This document shows positions 8,516 through 58,377 of a stretch of DNA of 64,000 nt, in pieces; within the stretch, counting starts at the first letter, position 1; every line of letters starts with the position of its first letter. Below the pieces are notes generated by a model. The model was given only the letters and a program-made list of their open reading frames with translations. It had not been told where the DNA came from and searched no databases. The position numbers and the translations under genes are program-made. Source of the DNA: Eunapius fragilis (taxonomy: Eukaryota > Porifera > Demospongiae > Spongillida > Spongillidae); NCBI GenBank assembly GCA_963681505.1, contig OY811984.1, forward strand, positions 780,772-844,771. Direction: 5' to 3'.

Positions 8516-9326
8516 CTAGGTGCTGTCATCGCTGTCCAACGACAGTGTAGCGGTGCTGTGGTCTTCCTCGTCTATACGAGCTGGCAGGACGTAGAACTGA
8601 TGTGGGTGTATGTACTCTCCGTCCTCTGTTTCCTCCTCTGGAGTGACCGAGTGATCACGGGGGCAGGGAAGAGGAGGGGTGGGAAGAGGGTCCCTGCACA
8701 ACTCCACGTAGTCGGAGACGGGGTTCTCCCTGAGGTGGTAACGCAGCGGCATGTACTCTCCCGCTGACTCTTTCGGGGGCAGGGGCGGGGCTGCAAGCAT
8801 CCCTCTGGGTTGCGAGGGAGAGCCCCTTGTGACATTGAGGGACTGGACCCTCCTCATGGTTGCTTCAGGTGAGGGAGGACTGGACACGGAGGAAGGGCTG
8901 CGTGTAAATGTGGAGTGTTTCTGACGGACCATTTCGGGCGCTGACACGATGCTCAGCCGACCAAGGCTTGCTCCACCCACTGAACACTCGGACCTTCCTG
9001 ATACTGACCCGTAGAACTGGTCTGTGTGTGTGGAGGACTGGGATGGGGGGCGCGTCTGGGGAGGAGTTTCCTTTTTTGACGCGCTTGCATCGGCTAAACA
9101 ATCCCTGAGCTCCCGCTGCCGAGTTGAGCTCGCTTTCATAGCTTCCTTGACGGCAAGAAACAACTTGAATACCAGTTGCCCAGTGAAAACAAACATCCCT
9201 TCTCCAGTTTTCGAGCATCTTGTATTAGAGCAGTCATTGTTGAATGAATTTAAGAAGAATGAATACTCAATTTAGGACATACACACCTATTCCTCTCACT
9301 TTCACATACACACATGTTCCACTCTA

Positions 9327-9378
<52 letters not shown>

Positions 9379-10126
9379 GTATACCTTCCAACTTCTATTT
9401 CCAGCTGGTCAGAAGTTTGATGGTAATGAACACGCCTCACGTCTTGCAATGACCACTCCCACTCCAGGTGTCCGCTCATTCCCCATATCTTGAACTGGGC
9501 GGGTGGGCTGAACTGGATCACGTGCTCTCCTTCTAGATCTTTGTGCTCGGGGCACTCAAGAAGGACCTGGTAGCATTCTGTAAGAAGAAGTATCTGGTTA
9601 CTTCCGCCCCTCTCCACTTATTGACAATAACATTTAGTATAGGCTATTTTTTAAATCGTTTATATTATTGGGTTCCGCCGCCTACCGAGCATACGTTCCA
9701 AAGCTTTATACCACTGCTCCATCTTCGTAACTGACTCAAAGGACAGGCAGATAGCGTAGGCACGGAGGGAGATGATCAGGTGGTTGTCATGTTCTCCGTG
9801 ACCGGTGAACTTTTGCACCGAAAAGCTGGTCAGTTGGCATTTGCTGATTTCGCTTTGTTTATTGGACAGCCAGTCGGTCTCCTTTTTGCAGTAGTTCAAG
9901 GAACACTTTGAAGGCGAAATGTTTGCGCTCAGCACCACCCAGCGACGCTTCCATTTCTGAAAGCGATTAAAGAGGTATTCGTCACAGTAGACGGGGCAGG
10001 CGCAATAGCGCGTTTGAAACCATAACCGGCTACCTTGTAAGGTTTCTCAGGTCGGTGCTCGCGACCGGTCTTCTTCGAGTCCACGACATGACGCACGTAC
10101 AAATGTTCGCAGAGGTCTTGGTCCAT
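8516..10126 (-). CDS. DOK-like PH-PTB adaptor, divergent minus-strand copy
   Basis: Four exons: 10034-10126, 9686-9956, 9385-9577 and 8516-9218, joining in frame to 1260 nt (419 aa). Residues 1-121 hold a PH domain with the invariant C-terminal Trp (KMEQWYKALERML). Residues 122-215 are an IRS-type PTB with WEWSLQDVRRVHY carrying the Arg pair expected to bind phosphotyrosine, ending TGEGMFVFTGQLVFKLF. The tail has candidate SH2-docking tyrosines YGSV, YMPL, YVEL, YIHP and YVLP in a Ser/Pro-rich context. DOK proteins are recruited to membranes and scaffold RasGAP, Nck or Csk after Tyr phosphorylation. The PTB is only about half identical to copies A-F and the tail is unrelated, yet the PH exon is nearly the same at nucleotide level. 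The gene is head to head with copy A. IRS-like is the alternative family; the short spacing between domains fits either. Confidence 0.86.
9330..9377. repeat. (CA)n microsatellite beside a donor site
   Basis: CA run that on the gene strand begins a few bases after the GTATAC donor of the PTB exon (9385-9577) of the minus-strand DOK-like gene. Confidence 0.92.
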
Positions 10127-11306: not shown

Positions 11307-12899
11307 ATGGACCAACAGCTTTGCGATCACTTGTACCTTTGTCATTCCTTGAACTTGGCTGAGCATGTAGGAAAAGACGATTCAACAGTTGAGATATATA
11401 AGGTTAAAGGCTTTATTCTACAGCATGCGTGCAGGTCCATGCATATACATGCCGGCATGAACTGCTTACCGTCTTTCTGTTTCAGAAATGGAAGCGTCGC
11501 TGGGTGGTGCTGAGCGCAAACATTTCGCCTTCAAAGTGTTCCTTAAACTACTGCAAAAAGGAGACCGTCTGGCTGTCCAATAAACAAAGCGAAATCAGCA
11601 AATGCCAACTGACCAGCTTTTCGGTGCAAAAGGCCACCGGTCACGGAGAACATGACAACCACCTGATCATCTCCCTCCGTGCCTACGCTATCTGCCTGTC
11701 CTTTGAGTCAGTTACGAAGATGGAGCAGTGGTACAAAGCTCTGGAACGTATGCTCGGTAGGCGGGGTCAGATGGTGGTTCGCACGTTCATCCATGCATGA
11801 CTGACCCAGCTCGGCTTTTTTAATTTAATTTTTTACGCTAATAGTTGTTTAAGAGGAATAGAAGCCGCTTTACCAAATATCATGTGACTGATACATACCC
11901 GATACCATGGAATTTATTTTTGACTAAGCTATACAGTTTTCAGTAAGTAGGTTGATGAGCGAAAAATACACCTGCAACGTGGGCTATGCTTACTAGTCTC
12001 TTCTGCAGAATTCTATGATGTCGTTCTGAACTGCCCCAAGTACAGTAGGCTCCAAGGTGAGTACGTGGTCCAGTTCTCTTCCCCAGACCAGTTTAAGGTG
12101 TGGGGGTTGAATGGTCAACTGCTCTGGGAATGGCCACTTAGCAATGTGAGGAGAATTGGCTACCAGAAATCAAATAAGGAGCTTGAAGTTGAAGTTGGAA
12201 GGTTTGGTTGGGGAGGAGGGGATATCTGGTATTGCCATTAAGTTAAGTATATCTTCCCCTACCCCTGTCAAACTGACCTGGTACAACAGAAAGTCATGTG
12301 TAGGAGATGGGCAGTTCTTCTTTGCTGGTCAGAGGGTATTCGCATTGTACCGCACAATTAAGAGAGCCATGGAGGTGCCTGTCCAGCAAGTCAGGTCCCC
12401 AGACCATCCTGATGAGCCAGCAAGGTCATCACCATATCTCCCAGCCAGGTTACCAGTCCTGCCAGCAAGGTCCCCAGACCAGCCCATAAGGTCACCAGTC
12501 CCATCTTTGAGATCAACAGCTAGATCCCTGAATGACAGAGTATTGATGAGGTCATCAGAAGACATTCACTCTCCAGACCACATCTATGCTTCAGTTGGTA
12601 AAACAATGTGCAATGTTAACAGTGCCCAGTCCCACCTGAATGGTGCATTATTGAAAAGTGCCACACCAAGCCTGGACGGTGCCCAGGCCACTGCGGACTA
12701 TGCTCAAGCACATAACAATAATGCCACATCTTACATGTGCCTGGACAGTACCCAGACCACCGTGGATGGTGCCCAGGCTAGTGCCGACACTACCCAGACC
12801 AGTGTGGTGAAGTTGGGCACCATGATAGAACATTGGGATAATCTCCAGACTGACATATATGATGATACTGCTTCATGCTCATCAGAGATTTATCTATGA
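11307..12899 (+). CDS. DOK-like PH-PTB adaptor, copy A
   Basis: Exons 11307-11402, 11486-11756, 12009-12201 and 12290-12899 join in frame to 1170 nt (389 aa). The N-terminus MDQQLCDHLYLCHSLNLAEH differs most from the other plus-strand copies. PH residues are of the SFSVQK..TGHGEH..AYAICL type, as in the minus-strand gene. The PTB has WEWPLSNVRRIGYQ. The tail has IYASVG, a run of Asp-x-Ala-Gln repeats and IYDDT, but then diverges to end SCSSEIYL, so it lacks the TVL end of B, D, E and F and several middle Tyr motifs. All four exons lie within 1.6 kb, making this the most compact copy, with no transposon in its introns. It is probably the founder or an old member of the plus-strand array. Function is as for the family: a phosphotyrosine-dependent docking protein (inferred). 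Confidence 0.86.
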
Positions 12900-15398: not shown

Positions 15399-18207
15399 AT
15401 GGATCTACAGCTTTGCGACTATCTATACGTCCGTCATTCTTTAGGCTCAGCTGAAAGGTTAAGAAAGGAAGGCCTATCGGCTGAGATCTATAAGGTTAGT
15501 ATGCCGCCCTTCTATTGTAATATTTTTATAATGATAATTAAACAAACCTTAGCCAGGTTATTGCTGACACGCCTAACTGCTCTATTTCAGAAATGGAAGC
15601 GTCGCTGGGTGGTGCTGAGCGCAAACATTTCGCCTTCAAAGTGTTCCTTGAACTACTGCAAAAAGGAGACCGACTGGCTGTCCAATAAACAAAGCGAAAT
15701 CAGCAAATGCCAACTGACCGGCTTTTCGGTGCAAAAGGCCACCGGTCGCGGAAAACATGACAACCACCTGATCATCTCCCTCCATGCATACGATATCTAC
15801 CTGTCCTTTGAGTCGGTTACGAAGATGGAGCAGTGGTACAAAGCTTTGGAACGTATGCACGGTAGGCGGGGTCAGCTGGCTATAATAATACGAAAACATT
15901 TTCCGCTACGAGAAATGTTAATTGGTGGTTTAATGGCAACAGTAAAATCATGTAAACATAGGCTTTGTACTGAAATTAAGAAGTGAAATATAGCTACTGC
16001 ATGCAATCGTGACCAGTGTTACCGCGATATACCGCGATTAATTCTTTATATACCGCTATTAAATTGCAAAATAAATGCCTTAGCCTCATATGACACTGAA
16101 TTAGTTCAACCTTGTGCACTTGTAGCTGTCGCGTACAGAGGCCTTCTTCTTTTCTGGATAGGCCTTGTATTGCATCGCATACAGAGGCCTTCTATTTTTC
16201 GGGATTGGCCTTGTAGAGCGCTCGGGCTTTAGCTTTGTTCTCGTCTTGCTTTTGGAGGTATTCCGCTCGTTGCTTAGATCTCTTCTTTTGATTACGCGAA
16301 GGCATTTTTAATTAGAAAAACAACTTCACTAGCCAAGGTAACAACTAAACTGCGATAAGACCAAATAAATTTAGTGCAGGTTAGAGTACCTATACCACCT
16401 AAAATTATTAATAAAAATCTATTATATATCATTATTAAATAGAACTTGCTAGATGTGATATGTCTATATGACATGTAAGGATAACGTGCCGGTAAATTTC
16501 GAAGCGATTGGTACTATTGCTGTTCTTTAAAACCGTTCGTAGCTCGAGTTATACCTTACTAAGAAGAAGAAGAATAAGAAGACGACGACGACGACGACCA
16601 AGAATTATTTTAGGACTGGGCACGAGAAACAGGAAATTGTTTCTCTATAACCACACCGTTTTATGACACGGAACCAACGTAGAACTGTAGATGGTTGTGC
16701 TCTCATTCCATCGCGATAAAGTGATAAGCGATCCGTTTCTCCGTTGTCCCTCCAGACGCTAGTGAAGTTTTATTAATGACTTTCATCAACCCTCAATCAA
16801 TCCTATTGAACCTGCTGCCGCAGGTTCAGATTCCTGACATTATAATTCTGTGATTCCATTTACGTGCATCTCATATATTGGAGGCGTATTGCCGTGTCTG
16901 GAACCCCGACCCATATGTAACATTTGTTGTACACAACCCAGCATGCTTGTCTTTTTAAAGTTTTTGCACGGGCAATGTTATAACAAAATCCTCCTTTGTG
17001 TTTGATGGCAAGGAAATTTGTAGGATACCATTTCCGTTGTGCAAAGGTAGAAACTAACTCAATTTCACCTCAAAACATTGTAACATTGCTACATGCATGT
17101 ATTTATTGTTGATCATGAATGAATAATTGCATCGTCATAGTAATGTAGTGGCTCGTTTATGCTGTGTGCTATATGACTAATTTAATTCCCAGCATGTGTT
17201 GCCATATTAAGCCCCACCTATTTATCTCTCCTGCAGAATTCTATGATGTCGTTCTGAACTGCCCCAAGTACAGTAGGCTCCAAGGTGAGTACGTGGTCCA
17301 GTTCTCTTCCCCAGACCAGTTTAAGGTGTGGGGGTTGAATGGTCAACTGCTCTGGGAATGGCCACTTAGCAATGTGAGGAGAATTGGCTACCAGAAATCA
17401 ACTAAGGAGCTTGAAGTTGAAGTTGGAAGGTTTGGCTGGGGAGGAGGGGATATCTGGTATTGCCATTAAGTTAAGTGTATCTTCCCCTCCCCTGTCAAAC
17501 TGACCTGGTACAACAGAAAGTCATGTGTCGGAGATGGGCAGTTCTTCTTTGCTGGTCAGAGGGTATTCGCATTGTACCGCACAATTAAGGGAGCCATGGA
17601 GGTGCCTGTCCAGCAAGTCAGGTCCCCAGACCAGTCCACGGGGTTACCAGATGAGCCCACAAGGTCACCATCAGATGTGCTGGCAAGGTCACCAGACCAT
17701 TCCATGAGATTACCAAGGTCACCAGTCCATTCCATGAGATTACCAAGGCCACCAGACCATTCCATGAGATTACCAAGGTCACCAGTCCCATCTTTGAGAT
17801 CAACAGCTAGATCCCTGAATGACAGAGCACTGACGAGGTCATCAGAAGACATTCCCTCTCCAGACCACACCTATGCTTCAGTTGGTCAATCAATGCACAA
17901 TGTTAACAGTGCCCAGTCCCACCTGAATGGTGCATTATTGAAAAGTGCCACACCATGCCTGGACAGAGCCCAGGCCACTGTGGACAGTGCCCAGGCCCAT
18001 ATCAATAATGCCACATCTTACATGTCTGCAATGTGTCTGGACAGTGTGGACAGTACATATGATGACGTCATAATGGGACATGAGGATAGTGCTGCCCAGG
18101 ACAGTAGGACATATGACAGCATTTCAGGGTCATCAGACCACTACTACAGCACAATGGAACCACAGGACAGTGCCCAGACCCACATATATGATGATACTGT
18201 CTTATAA
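15399..18207 (+). CDS. DOK-like PH-PTB adaptor, copy B
   Basis: Exons 15399-15494, 15591-15861, 17237-17429 and 17517-18207 join in frame to 1251 nt (416 aa). The N-terminus MDLQLCDYLYVRHSLGSAER is the standard one for B-F. PH (residues 33-123) is of the GFSVQKATGRGKHD..YDIYL type and has a unique His near its end (ERMHG). PTB covers about 123-215. The tail has three SPRSPVHSMR-like units, then Tyr motifs TYASV, STYDDV, TYDSI, YYSTM and IYDDTVL at the C-terminus. STYDDV fits the S/I/V/L-x-Y-x-x-I/V/L pattern of SHP-type SH2 ligands, and TVL fits a class I PDZ ligand. The 1.4-kb intron between PH and PTB exons holds a broken transposon ORF on the opposite strand. Confidence 0.87.
16110..16304 (-). 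pseudogene. fragment of a Lys-rich transposon-type ORF
   Basis: The minus strand begins MPSRNQKKRSKQRAEYLQKQ and continues KARALYKANPEK, then meets a stop. After it come degenerate repeats of the same Lys/Asn-Pro-Glu-Lys type. A similar broken peptide (YLQNRDD..YNADPEQK) occurs near 41090-41215 on the plus strand. Basic repeat proteins of this kind accompany mobile elements in sponge genomes as far as I recall. It lies in the PH-PTB intron of copy B. Confidence 0.4.
16505..16720. repeat. interspersed repeat with GACGAC run
   Basis: The segment AACCGTTCGTAGCTCGAGTT, then an AAG/GAC triplet run, then GACTGGGCACGAGAA, recurs in diverged form near 38645-38770, 40740-40840 (reverse) and 50985-51080 (reverse). 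This makes it a dispersed repeat family. Its full ends cannot be fixed from this window. Confidence 0.5.
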
Positions 18208-20181: not shown

Positions 20182-22978
20182 ATGGATCTACAGCTTTGCG
20201 ACTATCTATACGTCCGTCATTCTTCGGGCTCAGCTGAGAGGTTAAGAAAAGAAGGCCTATCGGCTGAGATCTATAAGGTTAGTGTACCGCCCTTCTATTG
20301 TAATATTTTTACAATGATAATTAAAACAAACCTTAGCAGCTTATTACTGACACGCCTAACTGTTATATTTCAGAAATGGAAGCGTCGCTGGGTGGTGCTG
20401 AGCGCAAACATTTCGCCTTCAAAGTGTTCCTTGATCTATTGCAAAAAGGAGACCGACTGGCTGTCCAATAAACAAAGCGAAATCAGCAAATGCCAACTGA
20501 CCGGCTTTTCGGTGCAAAATGCCACCGGTCGCGGAAAACATGACAACCACCTGATCATCTCCCTCCATGCCTACGATATCTGCCTGTCCTTTGAGTCAGT
20601 TACGAAGATGGAGCAGTGGTACAAAGCTTTGGAACGTATGCTCGGTAGGCGGAGTCAGCAGCTATTAATCCTGAAAAGTGGACGTGCTAATTACCTTATA
20701 AACGACCGCTACAGTACCGGCTCAAAGCAACGGAAGAGTCAAGCTCGCAACAACGGAAAATAAAGCATATTCATGGTGGGGTTGGGAAAGCTGTTGCTTT
20801 CATCAATAAAATTCATTCGACGAAGGCCGGTCCAGATCGATCGATATCGATGGATAAAGCAGTACATGTAAGGTTGCGCTATGGACACCATGAATATGCC
20901 TTATTTTCGGTTGTTGCGAGCTGTGACTTTTCCGTTGTTCCGAGCCGGTATCATAGCCGATTATGTGCCCCTCCCCCTCCCAAATAAAAATTTATCCCCC
21001 CGGATAATATCTTCTGTCCGGGGGGTGGACATGTTCTGCTAGTGGATTCTGTAGACCATTTCAGGATGACGACAGGCCAAAATGAGAGCGTGTATGCCTT
21101 TTAAGCGCTTATCTAGGACCAAATTAGTGGTATATCGAGTCGGTCAGACCAAACGAAAGCTGCCTGCAAGCGTGCTAAAAAAATGCAGGGGAGGGTGACA
21201 GATTCTGTGGAGGGAGGATAAGACCAATGATGCATAAAGGGTCGTGACCGAAATAGGCTTTGCCTAATACATGCTTAATTAATTACTTACGATCGTACTC
21301 GACCCGTCCTCATCCATTCTTTGACAGGGTCGGATACGCGGGCTCACCTCCCACCCTAACCCTCACTAAGCAGAGGGCTCACCTCCCTCTCTTACCCTCA
21401 CCAAGCACAGAGGGCTCACCTCCCACCCTAACCCTCATTAAGCACAGTGGCTCACCTCCCTCCCTAACCTCACCAAGCACAGAGGGCTTACCTCCCTCCC
21501 TAACCCTCACCAAGCACATGCAGAGGACTCACATCCCTCCATTATCGTTATCAAACACATCTCTTCAGTTTTTATGTGCAGCAACTGTTTGAAAAGGCAG
21601 TTGCTGTATGCTAAATGATTAATTTTAAATTCCCAGCATGCTGCCATGGTTATTTTAAATTGCACAATTCGCATGTGTGTGTATGCATCATATTAAGCCC
21701 CATCTATTGATCTCTCCTGCAGAATTCTATGATGTCTTTCTGCAGCAATGCCCCAAGTACAGTAGGCTCCAAGGTGAGTACGTGGTCCAGTTCTCTTCCC
21801 CAGACCTTTTTAAGGTGTGGGGGTTGAATGGTCAACTGCTCTGGGAATGGCCACTTAGCAATGTGAGGAGAATTGGCTACCAGAAATCAACTAAGGAGCT
21901 TGAAGTTGAAGTTGGAAGGTTTGGCTGGGGAGGAGGGGATATCTGGTATTGCCATTAAGTTAAGTGTATCTTCCCCTCCCCTGTCCAACTGACCTGGTAC
22001 AACAGAAAGTCATGTGTAGGAGATGGGCAGTTCTTCTTTGCTGGTCAGAGGGTATTCGCATTGTACCGCACAATTAAGGGAGCCATGGAGGTGCCTGTCC
22101 AGCCAATCAGGTCCCCAGACCAGTCCACAGGGTCACCAGTTGAGTCCACAAGGTCACCACCAGATCTACCAGCAATGTCTCCAGACCAGATCATAGAGTC
22201 ACCAGTCCATTCCATGAGATCACCAAGGTCACCAGTCCATTCCATGAGATTACAAAGGTCACCAGTTCATTCCATTAGATCACCAAGGTCACCAGCCCAT
22301 TCCATAAGATCACCAAGGTCACCAAGGTCACCAGTCCATTCCATGAGATTAAAAAGGTCACCAGTTCATTCCATTAGATCACCAAGGTCACCAGCCCATT
22401 CCATAAGATCACCAAGGTCACCAGCCCATTCCATGAGATCACCAAGGTCACCAGTCCATTCCATGAAATCACCAAGGTCACCAGTCCATTCCATGAGATT
22501 ACCAAGGTCACCAGCCCATTTCACGAGATCACCAAGGTCACCAACCCATTCCATGAGATCACTAAGGTCACCAGTCCATTCCATGAGATCATTAAGATCA
22601 CCAGTCCATTCCATGGGATCACCAAGGTCACCAGTCCATTCCATGAGATCACCATGGTCACCAGTCCCATCTGTGAGATCAACCCTGAATGACAGAGCAC
22701 TGATGAGGTCATCAGAAGACATTCACTCTCCAGAATACACATATGTTACAGTTGGTCAAACAAGGTACAGCGTTAACAGTGCCCAGTCCCACCTGAATGG
22801 TGCATTACTGAAAAGTGCCACACCAAGCCTGGACAGTGCCCAGGCCACTGTGGACAGTGCCCAGGCCCATATCAATGATGCCACATCTTACATGTCTTAC
22901 ATGTGTCTGGACAGTGTGGACAGTACATATGATGATGTCACAATGGGACATGAGGATAGTGCTGCCCAGTACATATGA
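20182..22978 (+). CDS. DOK-like PH-PTB adaptor, copy C, expanded and truncated tail
   Basis: Exons 20182-20277, 20374-20644, 21723-21918 and 22006-22978 join in frame to 1536 nt (511 aa), the longest copy. PH is of the GFSVQNATGRGKHD type; a unique Asn replaces Lys. The PTB exon has one codon more than A and B (LQQCPKYSR instead of LNCPKYSR). The tail carries about sixteen SPRSPVHSMR-like decapeptides where D, E and F have one. Further on, relative to B, 8 nt are missing after CATGAGGATAGTGCTGCCCA, so the frame ends at AAQYI. The downstream sequence, including the region for YDSI and IYDDTVL, is still recognisable but out of frame. The N-terminal domains look intact, so the product may still be made without its last docking motifs. 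The AATAAA found behind the other copies is altered to AATTAAA. Confidence 0.82.
21340..21545. repeat. about 36-bp intronic minisatellite, copy C
   Basis: Five to six units of CACCTCCCTCCCTAACCCTC plus ACCAAGCACAGAGGGCT in the PH-PTB intron of copy C. The same array lies in the matching intron of copy E. Confidence 0.88.
22195..22660 (+). repeat. coding 30-bp minisatellite of copy C tail
   Basis: About sixteen 30-bp units (core TCACCAAGGTCACCAGTCCA plus TTCCATGAGA), each encoding SPRSPVHSMR or a close variant. One extra 9-bp partial unit is present. The frame stays open throughout. Confidence 0.92.
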
Positions 22979-23892: not shown

Positions 23893-24845
23893 AGGGGTGG
23901 ACATCAAGGTGCTGTAGCAGGGTTAAGGGGTGGACATCAGGGTGCTGTAGCAGGGTTAAGGGGTGGACATCATGGTGCTGTAGCAGGGTTAAGGGGTGGA
24001 CATCATGGTGCTGTAGCAGGGTTAAGGGGTGGACATCAGGGTGCTGTAGCAGGGTTAAGGGGTGGACATCAGGGTGCTGTAGCAGGGTTAAGGGGTGGAC
24101 ATCATGGTGCTGTAGCAGGGTTAAGGGGTGGACGTCATGGTGCTGTAGCAGGGTTAAGGGGTGAACATCAGGGTGCTATAGCAGGGTTAAGGGGTGGACA
24201 TCAGGGTGCTGTAGCAGGGTTAAGGGGTGGACGTCATGGTGCTGTAGCAGGGTTAAGGGGTGAACATCAGGGTGCTGTAGCAGGGTTAAGGGGTGGACAT
24301 CAGGGTGCTGTAGCAGGGTTAAGGGGTGGACATCATGGTGCTGTAGCAGGGTTAAGGGGTGGACATCATGGTGCTGTAGCAGGGTTAAGGGGTGGACATC
24401 AGGGTGCTGTAGCAGGGTTAAGGGGTGGACATCAGGGTGCTGTAGCAGGGTTAAGGGGTGAACATCATGGTGCTGTAGCAGGGTTAAGGGGTGGACATCA
24501 GGGTGCTGTAGCAGGTTAAGGGGTGGACACCAGGGTGCTGTAGCAGGTTAAGGGGTGGACATCAGGGTGCTGTAGCAGGGTTAAGAGGTGGACATCAGGG
24601 TGCTGTAGCAGGGTTAAGGGGTGGACATCAGGGTGCTGTAGCAGGTTAAGGGGTGGACATCAGGGTGCTGTAGCAGGGTTAAGGGGTGGACATCAGGGTG
24701 CTGTAGCAGGGTTAAGGGGTGGACATCATGGTGCTGTAGCAGGGTTAAGGGGTGGACATCAGGGTGCTGTAGCAGGGTTAAGGGGTGGACATCATGGTGC
24801 TGTAGCAGGGTTAAGGGGTGGACATCATGGTGCTGTAGCAGGGCA
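23893..24845 (+). repeat. 33-bp satellite array, unit 1
   Basis: About 28 tandem units of GGGTTAAGGGGTGGACATCA plus GGGTGCTGTAGCA, with A/G and T/G variants at fixed positions and some 32-bp units. Each unit has a GGGTTA step like a telomeric hexamer and G-runs. It sits in the flank of copy C, and the matching array in the flank of copy E is more than twice as long. Confidence 0.95.
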
Positions 24846-28343: not shown

Positions 28344-31300
28344 ATGGATCTACAGCTTTGCGACTTTTTATACGTCCGTCATTCTTTGGGCTCAGCTGAA
28401 AGGTTAAGAAAAGAAGGCTTATCGGCTGAGATCTATAAGGTTAGTAATACCCGGCGCCCTTCTATAATTATAATTAAACAACCATAGCAGCTTGTTACAC
28501 GCGCCTAACTGTTCTATTTCAGAAATGGAAGCGTCGCTGGGTGGTGCTGAGCGCAAACATTTCGCCTTCAAAGTGTTCCTTGAACTACTGCAAAAAGGAG
28601 ACCGACTGGCTATCCAATAAACAAAGCGAAATCAGCAAATGCCAACTGACCGGCTTTTCGGTGCAAAAGGCCACCGGTCGCGGAAAACATGACAACCACC
28701 TGATCATCTCCCTCCGTGACTACGATATCTACCTGTCCTTTGAGTCGGTTACGAAGATGGAACAGTGGTACAAAGCTTTGGAACGTATGCTCGGTAAGCG
28801 GTCAGCTTGCTATAATAATGAAAACATTTTTTACGAGAAATGTTGGTGGTTTAATGGCAATGGTGGTGTAAAAAAGCACGGAAACATAGGCTTTGTACTG
28901 AAAAGAAAGAAGTGAAATAAACCTATAGCATGCAATCCTGACCAGTTACCGCGATTAATTCTTTATAACCATATCGCAAAATAAATGTATACGGACCACT
29001 ATTGGGTCAAAAAGAACAATGCTAAACATACCGTAATAATGGCGTCATTAAACTCACTATCTTAATGCATTGTTTGGAGCCTATGTTTGCACAACCAGAA
29101 TGAAATGCAGCAACATGGAGGGTCTAGGCATGTCAGTAGACAGACCCTTTCTGTACACATGTGTGTTACAGTACAGAATATAATTTTCATCTCTGCACAA
29201 CGTGAAGGTTCAGATGCCCATAGAGTTCAGTAAGAACTACTGATCCTTACGAATATTCAATAGATCTCGCGTAGGATCCTCAAAAAACCCTCGTTGTTTT
29301 CCGCCAATTGCTCCCGTGGGAGCATTTGGTAGCAATTCGTGAGGTAACGAATTGCGCCAATTGCACCCGTGGGAGCAATTGGGAGCAATTCGATTGCCTA
29401 ATTCAGATGCAGACAGAGACAGTTTTTTTTTACTCTGCAGGGAGATGTTTCTATTGTCCGCGTATGCATTTGGTGCGGGACACTACTATTAGTCTGATTC
29501 AAAGTGTTAACGTCTGGAAGTTTTTCGAGACTTTCCACACCATCCGACCTTACGTGCTGACATTGTTCTAATCAAGATACATTTCAAAGTGACTCTGTTT
29601 TACTCTTACTAGTTTTTTGAGCACAAAAGTACGAATATTGGACGTAGACTGGATACGACACAACACTTTCTTGAGAGAAATGCCTAATAGTTTAGATGCA
29701 TGCACGTTATTGCATTCGAAGTCTAATATGCGATTGTTCAAAGCTCACAGTTGACTGTACTTTGTACCTCCCCCATCGACCTGACTTAGAGACACGCCCC
29801 CAACACACACTACATGCATGTGGTGATAGTTTTACGAATTAAGGCATATCCATCAAGTGAAATTACATACGTTTGTCCATTAATTCCTTCACACACAGAG
29901 ATCACAGCTATATGCATGCACAGGAATACAGGGGGAAAAACACAATTATTTATAATATTTGTTATATAAATCATCCTTAAGAAATGTTTTTAGAGCCACT
30001 GAGAGCTAGATGGTTGTGCATGTGGCCAGCTGCATGGTTGTATGCATCTGGTTGTAGGGCCAGAGCAGGTTGTGGGGCCAGGGCTGGTTGTGGGGCCAAA
30101 GCTGGTTGTGGAGCCAGAGCTGGTTGTGGGGCCAGAGCTGGTTGTGGAGCCAGAGCTGGTTGTGGGGCCAGAGCAGGTTGTGGGGCCAGGGCTGGTTGTG
30201 GAGCCAGAGCTGGTTGTGGGGCCAGAGCTGGTTGTGGAGCCAGAGCTGGTTGTGGGGCCAGAGCAGGTTGTGGAGCCAGAGCTGGTTGTGGGGCTAGAGC
30301 TGGTTATGGGGCCAGAGCTGGGAGCCAGGGCTGTGTGTGGAACCAGAGCTGGTTGTGGAGCCAGAGCTGATTGTGGGACCAAAGTTGGTTGTGGGGTCAC
30401 GGCAGTTGTGGACCAGAGCTTGGTTGTGGAGCCAGGGCTGGTTGTGGAGCCAGAGATGGTTGTGGGGCCAGAGCTGGTTGTGGGGCCAGAGCTGGTTGTG
30501 GGGCCAGAGCTGGTTGTGGGGTTGTGCATTCATGAGGCCAGGGTAGCACAGTTGTGCATGGGCCCAGGGTTGGTGTGGGACCAGACCTGGTTGTGAGGCA
30601 TGATTGTGGAGTCAGGGATGGTTGTGGGGCCAGAGCTGGTGGTGGGGTCGTGTGTGCATGGGGTCAGGTTGCATGGTTGTGCATGGACCCAGGATTGGTT
30701 CTGAGGGTATGGCTGGTTGTGCATGGGAACAGGGCTGGGTGGTGGGGGTAGGCCTGGTTGTACATGGGGTCAGGGCTAGTATGTGAGACCATGCAAGCAC
30801 GGACATTAGAACCTTTCATTTTCTACAATGCCAGTGTCTGTTGTGTAAAACAGTCCGTGCACAACTTAACGTAGTACTGTACTGATCAACCGTTTTGACC
30901 TAGTTGCTAGGTCTCCTGCACGAACTGTTAACTTTAAAACGTATAACAGAGCCGCTTCGAAAACAATAAAATTATCAAGTTCATTCCATCTACAATACAA
31001 AGCTATGCGTCGTTGGAGCCAGAAAACGTCCTCAGTTTGTACACAAGCCAATGAGTAAATGACCTACAGCTAAAAGTTTATATGTTTTAAGTCGCATAGT
31101 GTTCGATTGGTTTAAGCTACGATCATGGTACTTGTGGCATCGGATAGAGTACAAGTTGTATAACCATAAAACAGTGCATCTCATATATTGGAGGCATATT
31201 GCCGTGTCTGGAACCCCGACCCATACGTAGCATTTCTTGTACACAACCCAGCATGCTTGTCTTTTAAAAGTTTTTGCGTGGGCAATGTTATAACGAAATC

Positions 31301-35960: not shown

Positions 35961-38900
35961 ATGGATCTACAGCTTTGTGGCTATCTATACGTCCGTCATT
36001 CTTTGGGGTCAGCTGAAAGGTTAAGAAAAGAAGGCCTATCGGCTGAGATCTATAAGGTTAGTATGCCGCCCTTCTATTGTAATATTATTATAATGATAAT
36101 TAAACAAACCTTAGCAGCTTATTACATGCCTAACTGTTCTATTTCAGAAATGGAAGCGTCGCTGGGTGGTGCTGAGCGCAAACATTTCGCCTTCAAAGTG
36201 TTCCTTGATCTATTGCAAAAAGGAGACCGACTGGCTGTCCAATAAACAAAGCGAAATCAGCAAATGCCAACTGACCAGCTTTTCGGTGCAAAAGGTCACC
36301 GGTCACGGAGAACATGACAACCACCTGATCATCTCCCTCCATGCCTACGCTATCTGCCTGTCCTTTGAGTCGGTTACGAAGATGGAGCAGTGGTACAAAG
36401 CTTTGGAACGTATGCTCGGTAGGCGGAGTCAGCCGCTATTAATCCTGAAAAGTGGACGTGCTAATTACCTTATAAACGACCGCTACAGTACCGGCTCAAA
36501 GCAACGGAAGAGTCAAGCTCGCAACAACGGAAAATAAGGCATATTCATGGTAGAGTCGGGGAAGCTGTTGCTTTCATCAATAAAATTCATTCGGCGAAGG
36601 CCGGTCCAGATCGATCGATATGATGGATGAAAGCAGTAAGGTTGCACTATGGACACCATGAATATGCCTTATTTTCCGTTGTTACGAGCTGGCGAGCTGT
36701 GACTTTTCCGTTGTTCCGAGCCGGTGTCATAGCTGATTATGCTCCCCCCCCCCCCCCCTCCCCCTCCCCCCTAAACATTGTCCCCCCGGATAATATCGTT
36801 AGCGGATTCTGTCCCGGACAGAATTTGCTAGCGGATTCTGTCCGGGAGGGGGACACGCTCCGCCCCCCCCCCCCCCCCCCCCCCCGCTCCCCCTCCGCAG
36901 AATTTGTCACCCCCTCCCCCTCCCTACATATTTGTTCATTAATTTATTTAGCACGCTTGCAGGCAGCTTCGTTTGGTCTGACCAGAGACTATATATTATC
37001 TCTGGTCTGACCGACTACATATACCACTAATTTGGTCCTAGATAAGCGCTTAAAAGGTATACACGCTCTCATTTTGGTCTGTCGTCATCCTGAAATTGTC
37101 TATAAGACCGATGATGCATGCAGGGTTGTGACCGAAATAGGCTTTGCCTAATTAATGCCTGAAACGGTCTTAATTAATTACTTACGAGTACGATCGACTC
37201 ATCTTCATCCATTCTTTGACAGGGTCGGGTACGGGGGGGGGGGGGGGGTGGTTGAAACCCCTTTTCATTTAAGGTTCCTCCCCCATTTCAGCAACATCTA
37301 TTGTGCAATAGTGGTCTTATATATAGTCTATATCATCCCCCTTTTAATTTTCGTAACCCTGCATGTTTGAACAACTCTCACCTAAGCGCACATGTATGGG
37401 TGTATGGTCCCACCACGCTAAATTAGTGTTGTATGTCTGGCCCCCGTCCTGTGTTTGGTGTATTAGAAGGTTGTGGTGATGCTATGTGGTTGTAATACGC
37501 ATGCATGTAGTGTTTTCTATGTGGCTCTATATGTGTGCCAATTTGCAGGCGTGCACAACGTAATTCAGTCTTATGAGGCTAAGGGGTGGAATAAGAGTGC
37601 TGTAGCAGGGGATGGGAGGGAGCTCTGTTTATGTCCGTATACATTAGATATGGGCTAGTATTGCTTATTATCGCCGCGGTTCTGACGCCATTTTATTACT
37701 CAAGGTCCGCTGTATGCTGGCTTGACTCGACTCACATACGTTTCTGCCTCTGACAATTCATCACTGGGGTTGGTGAGGGGCTCAAAGGGGGTGGGTTAGG
37801 GTCTAAGGAGGGTGGGTGAGAGCTGCAAGCTTCAGAAGCTGTTCCAAATTACACATGCAATAAGAAAGTTGAAAAAGATCATCATATCCTACCAAGGTCA
37901 TGGCCTTGGTTGTGGGCCTGCTGGCAATGCAAGCACCCATATCTTGAGCTTGCACAGTGATAACATGAGAAATAACAATAGTACCTGTGATGAATTGGAA
38001 AGTGGTGGTGTGGTCTAGCGGAAGTCTAACCACATATAAGCCTCCAGCCCAGCCCCCCACACCTCGAAAAAAGTGTAAGTGAGATTGTGGTTATCCAGCA
38101 ATGTCTATGAATCAGTAGACAGAATTAATTGTTATTATACTAGAATGCATGTTTGAAATAAATAAGAAGAGTTCTTTTACAGGGATGCCTAAATCGCTAG
38201 AGAGATCATACTGGTATGTCTGTGATAGGAGTAAAATAGGCAGCTATGCCCGATGAGTGGTATAAATAGGAAAGTATTTCTAAGAATGAACAGAATACTT
38301 TGTGTATAAGATATAAAAAACATTCTCTCTGAGAAAGTTGGTGGTATATAGGATTTGAAGGTAAGGGTTAAAAGGCAGGGAACAAGGGATCAACGATGAT
38401 ACGAAAATTTCTAAAGTCCTATATTTAGCACTTTTGTATAGCACATACATTTTACGTTGCAGAACTTTAAAAATTTTCATATCATCGTTGATCCCTTGTT
38501 CCCTTCCTTTTTACACCACCTTGCCTAGAAATCCTATATACCACCCGGCAACTTTCTCAGAGAGAATTTTTTTATATCTTGTATACCTGATACCTGGAGA
38601 TGTTCTTCCAGGAAATTCTTAGACTAAAGCCATTGGTATAATTGGCGATCTCTAAAACCGTTCCTGTCCCGAGCTATACTCTCCCGAGAAGAAGACAACA
38701 ACGACGACGACGACGGAGAAGAATTGGTCTGGGAACGAGAACAGCACGCGCTTGTTTGTTCTCTTAAAGCGAACAGTCTGAAGACTTGAACAAAACAACC
38801 ACCTTTGCCTTCTGGTTCGATAGCAACAAAGAGCTAAACTATCCGCTCCTCAGTACGCGAGTTATACGCGGGTCGCGTTTTGTATAATGATTTCATGATG

Positions 38901-45985: not shown

Positions 45986-47990
45986 GGTTAAGGGTAGCAG
46001 GGTTAAGGGGCGGACATCAGAGTGCTGTAGCAGGGTTAAGGGGCGGACATCATGGTGCTGTAGCAGGGTTAAGGGGTGGACATCATGGTGCTGTAGCAGG
46101 GTTAAGGGGTGGACATCAGAGTGCTGTAGCAGGGTTAAGGGGTGGACATCATGGTGCTGTAGCAGGGTTAAGGGGTGGACATCAGGGTGCTGTAGCAGGG
46201 TTAAGGGGTGGACATCAGGGTGCTGTAGCAGGGTTAAGGGGTGGACATCAGGGTGCTGTAGCAGGGTTAAGGGGTGGACATCAGGGTGCTGTAGCAGGGT
46301 TAAGGGGTGGACATCAGGGTGCTGTAGCAGGGTTAAGGGGTGGACATCATGGTGCTGTAGCAGGGTTAAGGGGTGGACATCAGGGTGCTGTAGCAGGGTT
46401 AAGGGGCAGACATCATGGTGCTGTAGCAGGGTTAAGGGGTGGACATCATGGTGCTCTAGCAGGGTTAAGGGGTGGACATCATGGTGCTGTAGCAGGGTTA
46501 AGGGGCGGACATCATGGTGCTGTAGCAGGGTTAAGGGGTGGACATCATGGTGCTGTAGCAGGGTTAAGGGGTCGGCATCATGGTGCTGTAGCAGGGTTAA
46601 GGGGTGGACATCATGGTGCTGTAGCAGGGTTAAGGGGTGGACATCATGGTGCTGTAGCAGGGTTAAGGGGTGGACATCATGGTGCTGTAGCAGGGTTAAG
46701 GGGTGGACATCATGGTGCTCTAGCAGGGTTAAGGGGTGGACATCAGGGTGCTGTAGCAGGGTTAAGGGGTGGACATCAGGGTGCTGTAGCAGGGTTAAGG
46801 GGTGGACATCATGGTGCTGTAGCAGGGTTAAGGGGTGGACATCATGGTGCTGTAGCAGGGTTAAGGGGTGGACATCAGGGTGCTGTAGCAGGGTTAAGGG
46901 GTGGACATCATGGTGCTGTAGCAGGGTTAAGGGGTGGACATCATGGTGCTGTAGCAGGGTTAAGGGGTGGACATCATGGTGCTGTAGCAGGGTTAAGGGG
47001 TGGACATCATGGTGCTGTAGCAGGTTAAGGGGTGGACATCAGGGTGCTGTAGCAGGGTTAAGGGGCGGACATCATGGTGCTGTAGCAGGGTTAAGGGGTG
47101 GACATCAGGGTGCTGTAGCAGGGTTAAGGGGTGGACATCATGGTGCTGTAGCAGGGTTAAGGGGTGGACATCATGGTGCTGTAGCAGGGTTAAGGGGTGG
47201 ACATCAGGGTGCTGTAGCAGGGTTAAGGGGTGGACATCATGGTGCTGTAGCAGGGTTAAGGGGTGGACATTATGGTGCTGTAGCAGGGTTAAGGGGTGGA
47301 CATCATGGTGCTGTAGCAGGGTTAAGGGGTGGACATCATGGTGCTGTAGCAGGGTTAAGGGGTGGACATCAGGGTGCTGTAGCAGGGTTAAGGGGCGGAC
47401 ATCATGGTGCTGTAGCAGGGTTAAGGGGTGGACATCAGGGTGCTGTAGCAGGGTTAAGGGGTGGACATCATGGTGCTGTAGCAGGGTTAAGGGGTGGACA
47501 TCAGGGTGCTGTAGCAGGGTTAAGGGGTGGACATCAGGGTGCTGTAGCAGGGTTAAGGGGTGGACATCAGGGTGCTGTAGCAGGGTTAAGGGGTGGACAT
47601 CATGGTGCTGTAGCAGGGTTAAGGGGTGGACATCATGGTGCTGTAGCAGGGTTAAGGGGTGGACATCATGGTGCTGTAGCAGGGTTAAGGGGTGGACATC
47701 ATGATGCTATAGCAGGGTTAAGTGGGGGACATCAGGGTGCTGTAGCAGGGTTAAGGGGTGGACATCAGGGCGCTGTAGCAGGGTTAAGGGGTGGACATCA
47801 TGGTGCTGTAGCAGGGTTAAGGGGTGGACATCAGGGTGCTGTAGCAGGGTTAAGGGGTGGACATCATGGTGCTGTAGCAGGGTTAAGGGGTGGACATCAG
47901 GGTGCTGTAGCAGGGTTAAGGGGTGGACATCAAGGTGCTCTAGCAGGGTTAAGGGGCGGACATCATGGTGTTGTAGCAGGGTTAAGGGGT
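45986..47990 (+). repeat. 33-bp satellite array, unit 2
   Basis: About 60 units of the same 33-bp sequence as at 23893-24845. Because 33 is a multiple of three, two long open frames run through it, with a frame switch at one 32-bp unit near 47020. The reading LRGGHQGAVAG is a by-product. Confidence 0.95.
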
Positions 47991-48110
47991 GTCAATAAGC
48001 AATCGAAATGTACGTGAGTTTCATCTGCCATATGACGATTCAGAATTGAAAATCCTCTTTAAATTGTTAAATAATGAATTGAAGTCTAAGGGATATGCAG
48101 AAATAGAGCT

Positions 48111-57076: not shown

Positions 57077-58377
57077 ATGGATCTACAGCTTTGCGACTAT
57101 CTATACGTCCGTCATTCTTTGGGCTCAGCTGAAAGGTTAAGAAAAGAAGGCCTATCGGCTGAGATCTATAAGGTTAGTAATACCGCCCTTCTATAATTAT
57201 AATTAAACAATCTTAGCAGCTTATTACATGCCTAACTGTTCTATTTCAGAAATGGAAGCGTCGTCGCTGGGTGGTGCTGAGCGCAAACATTTCGCCTTCA
57301 AAGTGTTCCTTGATCTACTGCAAAAAGGAGACCGACTGGCTGTCCAATAAACAAAGCGAAATCAGCAAATGCCAACTGACCAGCTTTTCGGTGCAAAAGG
57401 CCACCGGTCACGGAGAACATGACAACCACCTGATCATCTCCCTCCGTGCCTACGATATCTACCTGTCCTTTGAGTCGGTTACGAAGATGGAACAGTGGTA
57501 CAAAGCTTTGGAACGTATGCTCGGTAGGCGGGGTCAGCTGGCTATAATAATGAAAACATTTTTTACGAGAAATGTTGGTGGTTTAATGGCAATAGTGGTG
57601 TAAAAAAGCATGGTTTGTACTGAAAAGAAAGAAGTGAAATATACCTATAGCATGCAATCCTGACCAGTTACCGCGATTAATTCTTTATAATTGATAACCA
57701 TATCGCAAAATAGATGTATACGGACCACTATTGGGTCAAAAAGGATATAATTAGAATGCTAAGCATACCGTAATAATGGCGTCATTAAACTCATTATCTT
57801 AATGCATTGTTTGGAGCCACTGTTTGCACAACCAGAATGAAATGCGGGTAGACAGACCCTTTCTGTACACATGTGTACCTAATTCAGATGCAGACAGAGA
57901 CAGTTTTTTTTTACTCTGCGGGGAGATGTTTCTATTGTCCGCGTATGCATTTGGTGCGGGAGACTACTATTAGTCTGATGACATTGTTCTATATATCAAG
58001 ATACATTTCAAAGTGACTCTGTTATAATCTTACTAGTTTTTTGAGCACAAAAGTACGAATATTGGACGTAGACTGCAGTGGCGTATCCAGGATTTCAGCG
58101 AGGGGGGTGCTTAAGTTCAGGCCCGATACGAAAAGCGGGGGGGGGGGGGGGGGGGGGGGGGTGCTGTCGGTTTCTGGCCCAATACGAAAAGCAGGGGGGG
58201 GGGGGGGGGGTGCTGGTGCTGTCGGTTTCTGGCCCGATACGAAAAGGGAGGGGCAGGCGCGTATCCAGAATGTGCTGGAGGGTGCTGAGGAGCTAGCGCG
58301 AAATTTTTTGGCAACCACGCCCATTCTTGTATTCATTCTTGAGACGGAGACGGAGGGGGGTGCCCGAGCCCCCTGAA

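Follow-up and report, generated by a model that had tools for sequence, protein, structure and literature searches.

Exon-limited homogenisation of a PH exon between an old inverted gene and an array of putative docking-adaptor genes in the sponge Eunapius fragilis

Why is a single exon of an old gene nearly identical to the corresponding exons of its neighbours, silent sites included, when the exons on either side of it have long diverged? This question is raised by a 64,000-nucleotide stretch of the genome of the freshwater sponge Eunapius fragilis (OY811984.1, here C14:780772-844771; the window), in which a gene on the minus strand, here called M, adjoins an array of plus-strand copies, called A to I, of a family with a PH exon, PTB exons and a C-terminal tail. 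The original prediction, made from the sequence of the window, was that the PH exons of M and A are nearly identical while the rest of both genes is old and diverged, and that either exon-limited gene conversion in inverted orientation or extreme constraint had left this pattern. We found exon-limited homogenisation of the PH exon at this locus, and in a second sponge the PH proteins likewise group by species; constraint is not the cause. With high confidence we read this as concerted evolution confined to the exon, for which recurrent ectopic gene conversion, inverted in the case of M, is the best explanation.

A DNA search of the genome (219 Mb in 24 contigs) with the PH exon returned ten copies, a lower bound, all within a 71-kb cluster at C14:790411-861220. 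Copies A to F lie inside the window and G to I just past its end; these last three bring the seven PH copies originally predicted to ten. A protein search with the PH exon gave the ten cluster copies and one further, insignificant match (E 0.73). A dispersed mobile PH exon was considered and rejected, since the ten DNA matches are in register and form a single cluster and the only other protein match is the one at E 0.73. For eight of the ten copies we assembled gene models consisting of exon 1, PH, PTB1, PTB2 and a tail. Copy F has no model because the sequence pattern missed its PTB exon, though tblastn finds that exon, and F was excluded from the PTB1 comparison, the trees and the permutation test. 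Copy H was retained in the PH comparisons and excluded from those of exon 1 and PTB1, the trees, the permutation test and the count of variable residues.

Gene M consists of exon 1 (10034..10126, minus strand; 31 amino acids), the 271-nucleotide (nt) PH exon (9686..9956), the PTB1 exon (9385..9577) and a last exon (8516..9218) that encodes the end of the PTB domain and a tail with the motifs EYMPL, DYVEL and EYIHP; the acceptor of this last exon was picked from the reading frame, not from a transcript. The PH exon, the stretch of this inverted gene that has been homogenised, runs from phase 0 to phase 1. Its CAG acceptor precedes AAATGG and its donor GTAGGCGG follows CTCG, and exon 1 and PTB1 are only 77 and 108 nt away.

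As predicted, the PH exons of M and A differ at few positions, silent sites included: there are six mismatches in 271 nt, three silent and three replacement. The near-identity is thus real, but A is not special in this respect. E also has six mismatches to M, G has seven and the remaining copies have 8-15, so that all nine are 94.5-97.8% identical to M in nucleotides; the idea that A was a special donor to M was rejected because E is equally close. The rest of M is different. The PTB1 protein of M is 53% identical to that of A, about half as originally estimated, and 52-53% identical to those of the four local copies compared; for exon 1 the corresponding values are 39-42%. Between the tails of M and A, the only array copy compared, there is no significant similarity (best BLASTP E 0.90).

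This difference between exons is most evident at silent sites. By the method of Nei and Gojobori, silent divergence of M from the other copies is 0.04-0.08 in the PH exon (nine copies), whereas it is 0.92-1.35 in PTB1 (seven copies) and ranges from 1.5 to saturated in exon 1 (eight copies). Silent divergence in the PH exon is therefore far from equal to that in PTB1; it is 13-29-fold lower in the seven copies with both exons. Between M and A, 3 of 56 silent sites have changed in the PH exon and 32 of 56 in exon 1 plus PTB1 (Fisher test, P 1.9e-9), and the probability of six or fewer mismatches in 271 nt at the rate seen in exon 1 plus PTB1 (105/285) is 1.8e-44. Within B-I the mean silent divergence of the PH exon is 0.053; in this exon M is thus about as near to the array copies as they are to one another.

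The similarity ends near the splice sites, again as predicted. On the 5' side M shares 6 nt (TTTCAG) with all nine copies, which could be the acceptor consensus, and on the 3' side it shares 8 nt (GTAGGCGG) with eight of the nine and 3 nt with D. Beyond these edges the introns differ: those flanking the PH exon of M have no significant similarity to those of the three copies compared (A, B and G).

Could such a pattern be produced by the assembly, with an array exon collapsed or misplaced at M? The array is repetitive, and the M exon is known from the assembly. However, the reading frame and splice sites of M are intact, its introns do not resemble those of the copies with which they were compared, the window contains no N, and the ten PH exons are all mutually different, that of M having one private variant (alignment column 252). 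An independently sequenced sponge, Ephydatia muelleri, gives the same grouping. We regard an artefact as extremely improbable.

Copy A turned out to be a second case. Its exon 1 (11307..11402, plus strand, as are all array features) has a silent divergence of at least 1.2 to the seven copies among B-I that have this exon, but its PH exon (11486..11756) only 0.04-0.10. Introns 1 and 2 of A differ from their counterparts in B and G, except for 14-18 nt adjoining the PH exon; on the 3' side, A shares 14 nt with B, F, G and I. Downstream, A resembles the array: its PTB1 exon (12009..12201) is 96-99.5% identical in nucleotides to those of B, C, D, E, G and I, and intron 3 is also array-like; PTB2 and the tail follow at 12290..12899. 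The PH exons of B (15591..15861), C (20374..20644), D (28523..28793), E (36148..36418) and F (57250..57523, with one codon extra) belong to ordinary, fairly recent duplicates. In B-I, PTB1 and the compared introns are similar too, the latter at least in part in all four pairs examined (B-C, B-G, E-G and D-I). It follows that exon-limited identity is anomalous for M, and for A around the PH exon. Copy H (PH region at C14:857224-857493, locus L014) is a decaying copy, with an in-frame stop near the end of the PH exon, a broken PTB1 and only a fragment of exon 1 (E 9.3); its PH exon is still 94.5% identical to that of M.

Are the PH exons the product of one event or of many? A single recent replacement or insertion in M, by non-homologous exon shuffling or by one conversion, could account for M alone and would fit its one private variant. 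Against it stands the mosaic structure of the exon: M shares TTC at codon 50 with G alone and other variants with A, B or D. Across the copies the PH variants form a mosaic as well: of 91 informative site pairs, 45 are incompatible by the four-gamete test, and neighbouring sites are incompatible less often than after shuffling (P 0.021). In a GENECONV-like permutation test on polymorphic columns (2000 shuffles), the kind of test called for by the original prediction, the fragments that M shares with A, E, G, I and B were significant after Bonferroni correction, i.e. five of seven M pairs, and they lie inside the PH exon. A also gave significant fragments with B, C, D, E, G and I, and these extend into PTB1. 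The PH exon is in register with the splice sites, which does not favour non-homologous insertion, and the same pattern in A and, at the protein level, in the M locus of Ephydatia requires several events in two lineages. A single event is therefore improbable.

Extreme purifying selection at the nucleotide level, by an overlapping function, could hold old copies alike without any exchange. It is in line with the near-identity of the PH exons, silent sites included, and with the length of the PH exon, which exceeds that of every other coding block shared upstream of the tail. Within B-I, however, the ratio of replacement to silent divergence (dN/dS, as ratios of means) is higher in the PH exon (about 0.66) than in PTB1 (0.40) or exon 1 (0.11). 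Replacements in the array PH exons are relatively many, at residues such as 50, 53, 55, 65 and 68, which vary in Ephydatia too; 17 and 32 residues vary in the two species and 9 of them are shared, an overlap that does not reach significance (P 0.085).

The decisive comparison was that with a related species, as had been proposed. In a protein search the closest named proteins were those of the freshwater sponge Ephydatia muelleri, whose M orthologue is EMCRGX_G031001 (P0001), 60% identical across the whole protein (local and Ephydatia sequences are prefixed s and e). Orthology is backed by exon 1, with 97% identity between sM and eM, and by the matching tail (E 1.6e-47). PTB1 is 78% identical between the two and the PH exon 79%, so 19 of 90 PH residues differ, about the degree of change seen in PTB1. 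In contrast, the PH exon of sM is 89-98% identical to the nine local copies at the protein level. The PH exon of eM is likewise 90% identical to that of e1008a and 83% to that of e1011a, whereas its exon 1 reaches only 39-50% identity to the Ephydatia copies; for the pair eM-e1008a, exon 1 is 39% and PTB1 56% identical. At the 19 diagnostic residues the nine other local copies match sM at 16-19 and eM at 0-2, while e1008a matches eM at 16 and sM at 2, and e1011a matches eM at 12 and sM at 4. At 9 of the 90 PH positions no residue is common to the local copies (H excluded) and the four Ephydatia copies.

Trees of the same proteins conflict accordingly. They comprised eight of the ten local copies and, from Ephydatia, three proteins for the non-PH part and three or four for the PH exon; P0009 (a PH fragment, 99% identical to e31019), P0004 (with an M-like tail) and P0008 (without a PH exon) were not included. 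P0005 and P0007 correspond to the local copies C and I. The maximum-likelihood PH tree is split by species (support 99/97), and in the tree built from exon 1 and PTB, sM and eM group together (100/100). By the approximately unbiased (AU) test, sM with eM is rejected for the PH exon (p 2.3e-6), and all local copies together are rejected for the non-PH part (p 0.0014). The PH exon thus groups by species and the rest by locus. Purifying selection is refuted by this between-species comparison, and we give it almost no probability. Of the two causes originally offered, conversion is borne out by the silent sites, the tree conflict and the mosaic; constraint fell with the 79% identity of the orthologous PH exons and the commonness of replacements. 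One of the Ephydatia models, P0006 (Em0018g1011a), has its PH-bearing part fused to a region with Pfam PF21787, which may reflect either a true fusion or an erroneous gene model.

Several observations weigh against gene conversion or narrow the evidence for it. The fragments shared by M with D (0.07) and C (0.98) fail Bonferroni correction. Homogenisation in Ephydatia is uneven: the PH exon of e31019 is 80% identical to eM and 79% to sM, and it matches eM at 7 and sM at 6 of the diagnostic residues. The clades of the AU test were named after the identities were known. The Ephydatia evidence is at the protein level, and silent sites and tract ends come from the local genome alone. Gene conversion is often accompanied by a raised GC content at third codon positions (GC3); the PH exon of M has no raised GC3 compared with its own exon 1 plus PTB1 (P 0.54). 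Raised GC3 in the PH exon has P<0.05, uncorrected, in five of eight copies tested, which are not independent.

How would recurrent gene conversion be confined to one exon? M is an old separate locus that adjoins the array in opposite orientation, and ectopic conversion among the clustered copies would repeatedly replace the PH exon in M and in A by array sequence, leaving exon 1, PTB1 and tail of M untouched. The tracts may end at the splice sites because the introns are too diverged to pair, and with the introns diverged the PH exon is the longest homologous block left. At 271 nt, compared with 193 nt for PTB1 and 93 nt for exon 1, it may be the only block both long and similar enough to pair. 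Conversion would then be the molecular step and heterology its limit. PTB1 is about as conserved between the species as the PH exon (78% compared with 79%), so protein constraint by itself gives no reason for the choice of the latter. If M and A crossed over within their inverted PH exons, the two genes would exchange first exons; no net swap was seen in either species, exon 1 of M accompanying the M tail in both. The consequence would be a common PH core combined with a locus-specific exon 1, PTB and tail.

What kind of protein carries this exon? The PH exon of M matches Pfam PF00169 (E 2.9e-6) with 28.2 bits and that of A with 27.1 bits, above the cut-off of 25.1, and aligns to positions 17-102 of the 105 in the profile. 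Because it starts at position 17, it is exon 1 that encodes the first strand and probably also the beta1-beta2 loop, a main phosphoinositide contact in classic PH domains. The edge of the exon was placed in the fold from the Pfam profile and general PH anatomy. Judged by sequence, the shared module is the PH core, including the basic KWKRRW strand, and not the whole binding site. The predicted common phosphoinositide-binding module has to be corrected accordingly: what is common is the core of a putative lipid-binding domain, and exon 1, with the probable ligand loop, is not homogenised. A search of solved structures with just the PH exon gave no match up to E 10. The PTB domains of the two copies scanned out of ten score 18.4 (M) and 22.2 bits (G) against the IRS/DOK-type PTB profile PF02174, with a cut-off of 22, and the PTB profile reaches the DOK2 PTB structure (E 0.00034). 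Weak sequence matches are to the DOK2 PTB (E 0.015), the DOK5 PTB (E 0.042) and the IRS1 PH structure (E 0.093). Several tyrosine motifs are present in the tails, and they are not the same in M as in the array. By these features the genes encode putative PH-PTB-tail docking adaptors with an IRS/DOK-like architecture. As in IRS/DOK proteins, an N-terminal PH is followed by a PTB and a tyrosine-containing tail; unlike them, the sponge PTB is near the Pfam cut-off and the PH exon alone lacks a structure match. The predicted structure of the Ephydatia M orthologue has a mean predicted local distance difference test score (pLDDT) of 38, too low to look for related folds with it.

Some further features of the array and the genome were seen. 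Copy C has the longest of the eight assembled proteins, partly through a 30-nt tandem repeat in its tail exon (22198-22681) that encodes repeated SPVHSMRSPR-like peptides. The same 33-nt unit forms two large arrays with 96% matches, at 23893-24843 (about 29 copies) and 45994-47991 (about 61 copies), about 1 kb beyond the stop codons of C and E, respectively; a strong GC skew runs across the second. Many more clustered IRS-type PTB matches, some with identical scores, are present at C1:14.9-15.3 Mb, C16:3.32-3.35 Mb and on C15 and C4, which suggests more tandem expansions of PTB adaptors.

Domain-limited concerted evolution is already known, and the sponge locus is a further, very clean case. 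In mammalian TLR1/TLR6, one domain-coding region is more alike between paralogues than between orthologues, a state reached independently in several species, and orthology prevails elsewhere; there, two tandem genes and a tract of about 300 residues are involved (PMC2077338), whereas in the sponge it is one 271-nt intron-bounded exon in ten copies of an adaptor family, one of them inverted. In the CEACAM1 family of ruminants the N-domain exon is converted, domain exons are converted more than introns for some paralogues, one neighbour partly escapes, and inversion through recombination between inverse genes is discussed (PMC7042247). Those genes encode immune-type receptors (PMC7042247); the sponge exon encodes an intracellular PH core, and M retains all but this exon as its own. 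BEX/WEX/GASP genes share an exon with an independent history, with chimaeric genes arising independently in lineages, but that exon is a non-coding 5' untranslated one on the mammalian X (PMC1274310), and the sponge exon is coding. BMP8A/B, DDX19A/B and TUBG1/2 show long-lived concerted evolution of gene parts, BMP8A/B in inverted orientation (PMC2720389), and differ from the sponge locus in that the introns of M have diverged. Among the matches listed from the open-licence PMC literature, there is no report of this locus or of a converted PH exon, and no title names sponge IRS/DOK adaptors. The sponge case is characterised by the single exon, the ten copies, the second lineage at the protein level and the inverted partner.

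It is tempting to speculate that the locus is a segmental protein-design system, in which conversion keeps the PH core common and co-evolving while exon 1, PTB and tail stay private. The adaptors would then have a shared membrane-docking scaffold, each with its own lipid-loop and receptor specificity, and this would be maintained in both lineages by selection on the PH core for one partner in common; we consider this possible but rather unlikely. Trees of these sponge adaptors that are based on the PH domain group by species, not by gene, and have to be read with caution. The locus separates conversion from constraint and is an unusually clean natural experiment: in an ancient paralogue one exon is kept young together with those of its inverted neighbours, while silent divergence in the flanking exons is about 1 or saturated. 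This makes it testable why conversion takes the PH exon and passes over the PTB exon beside it, whose conservation between species is about the same.
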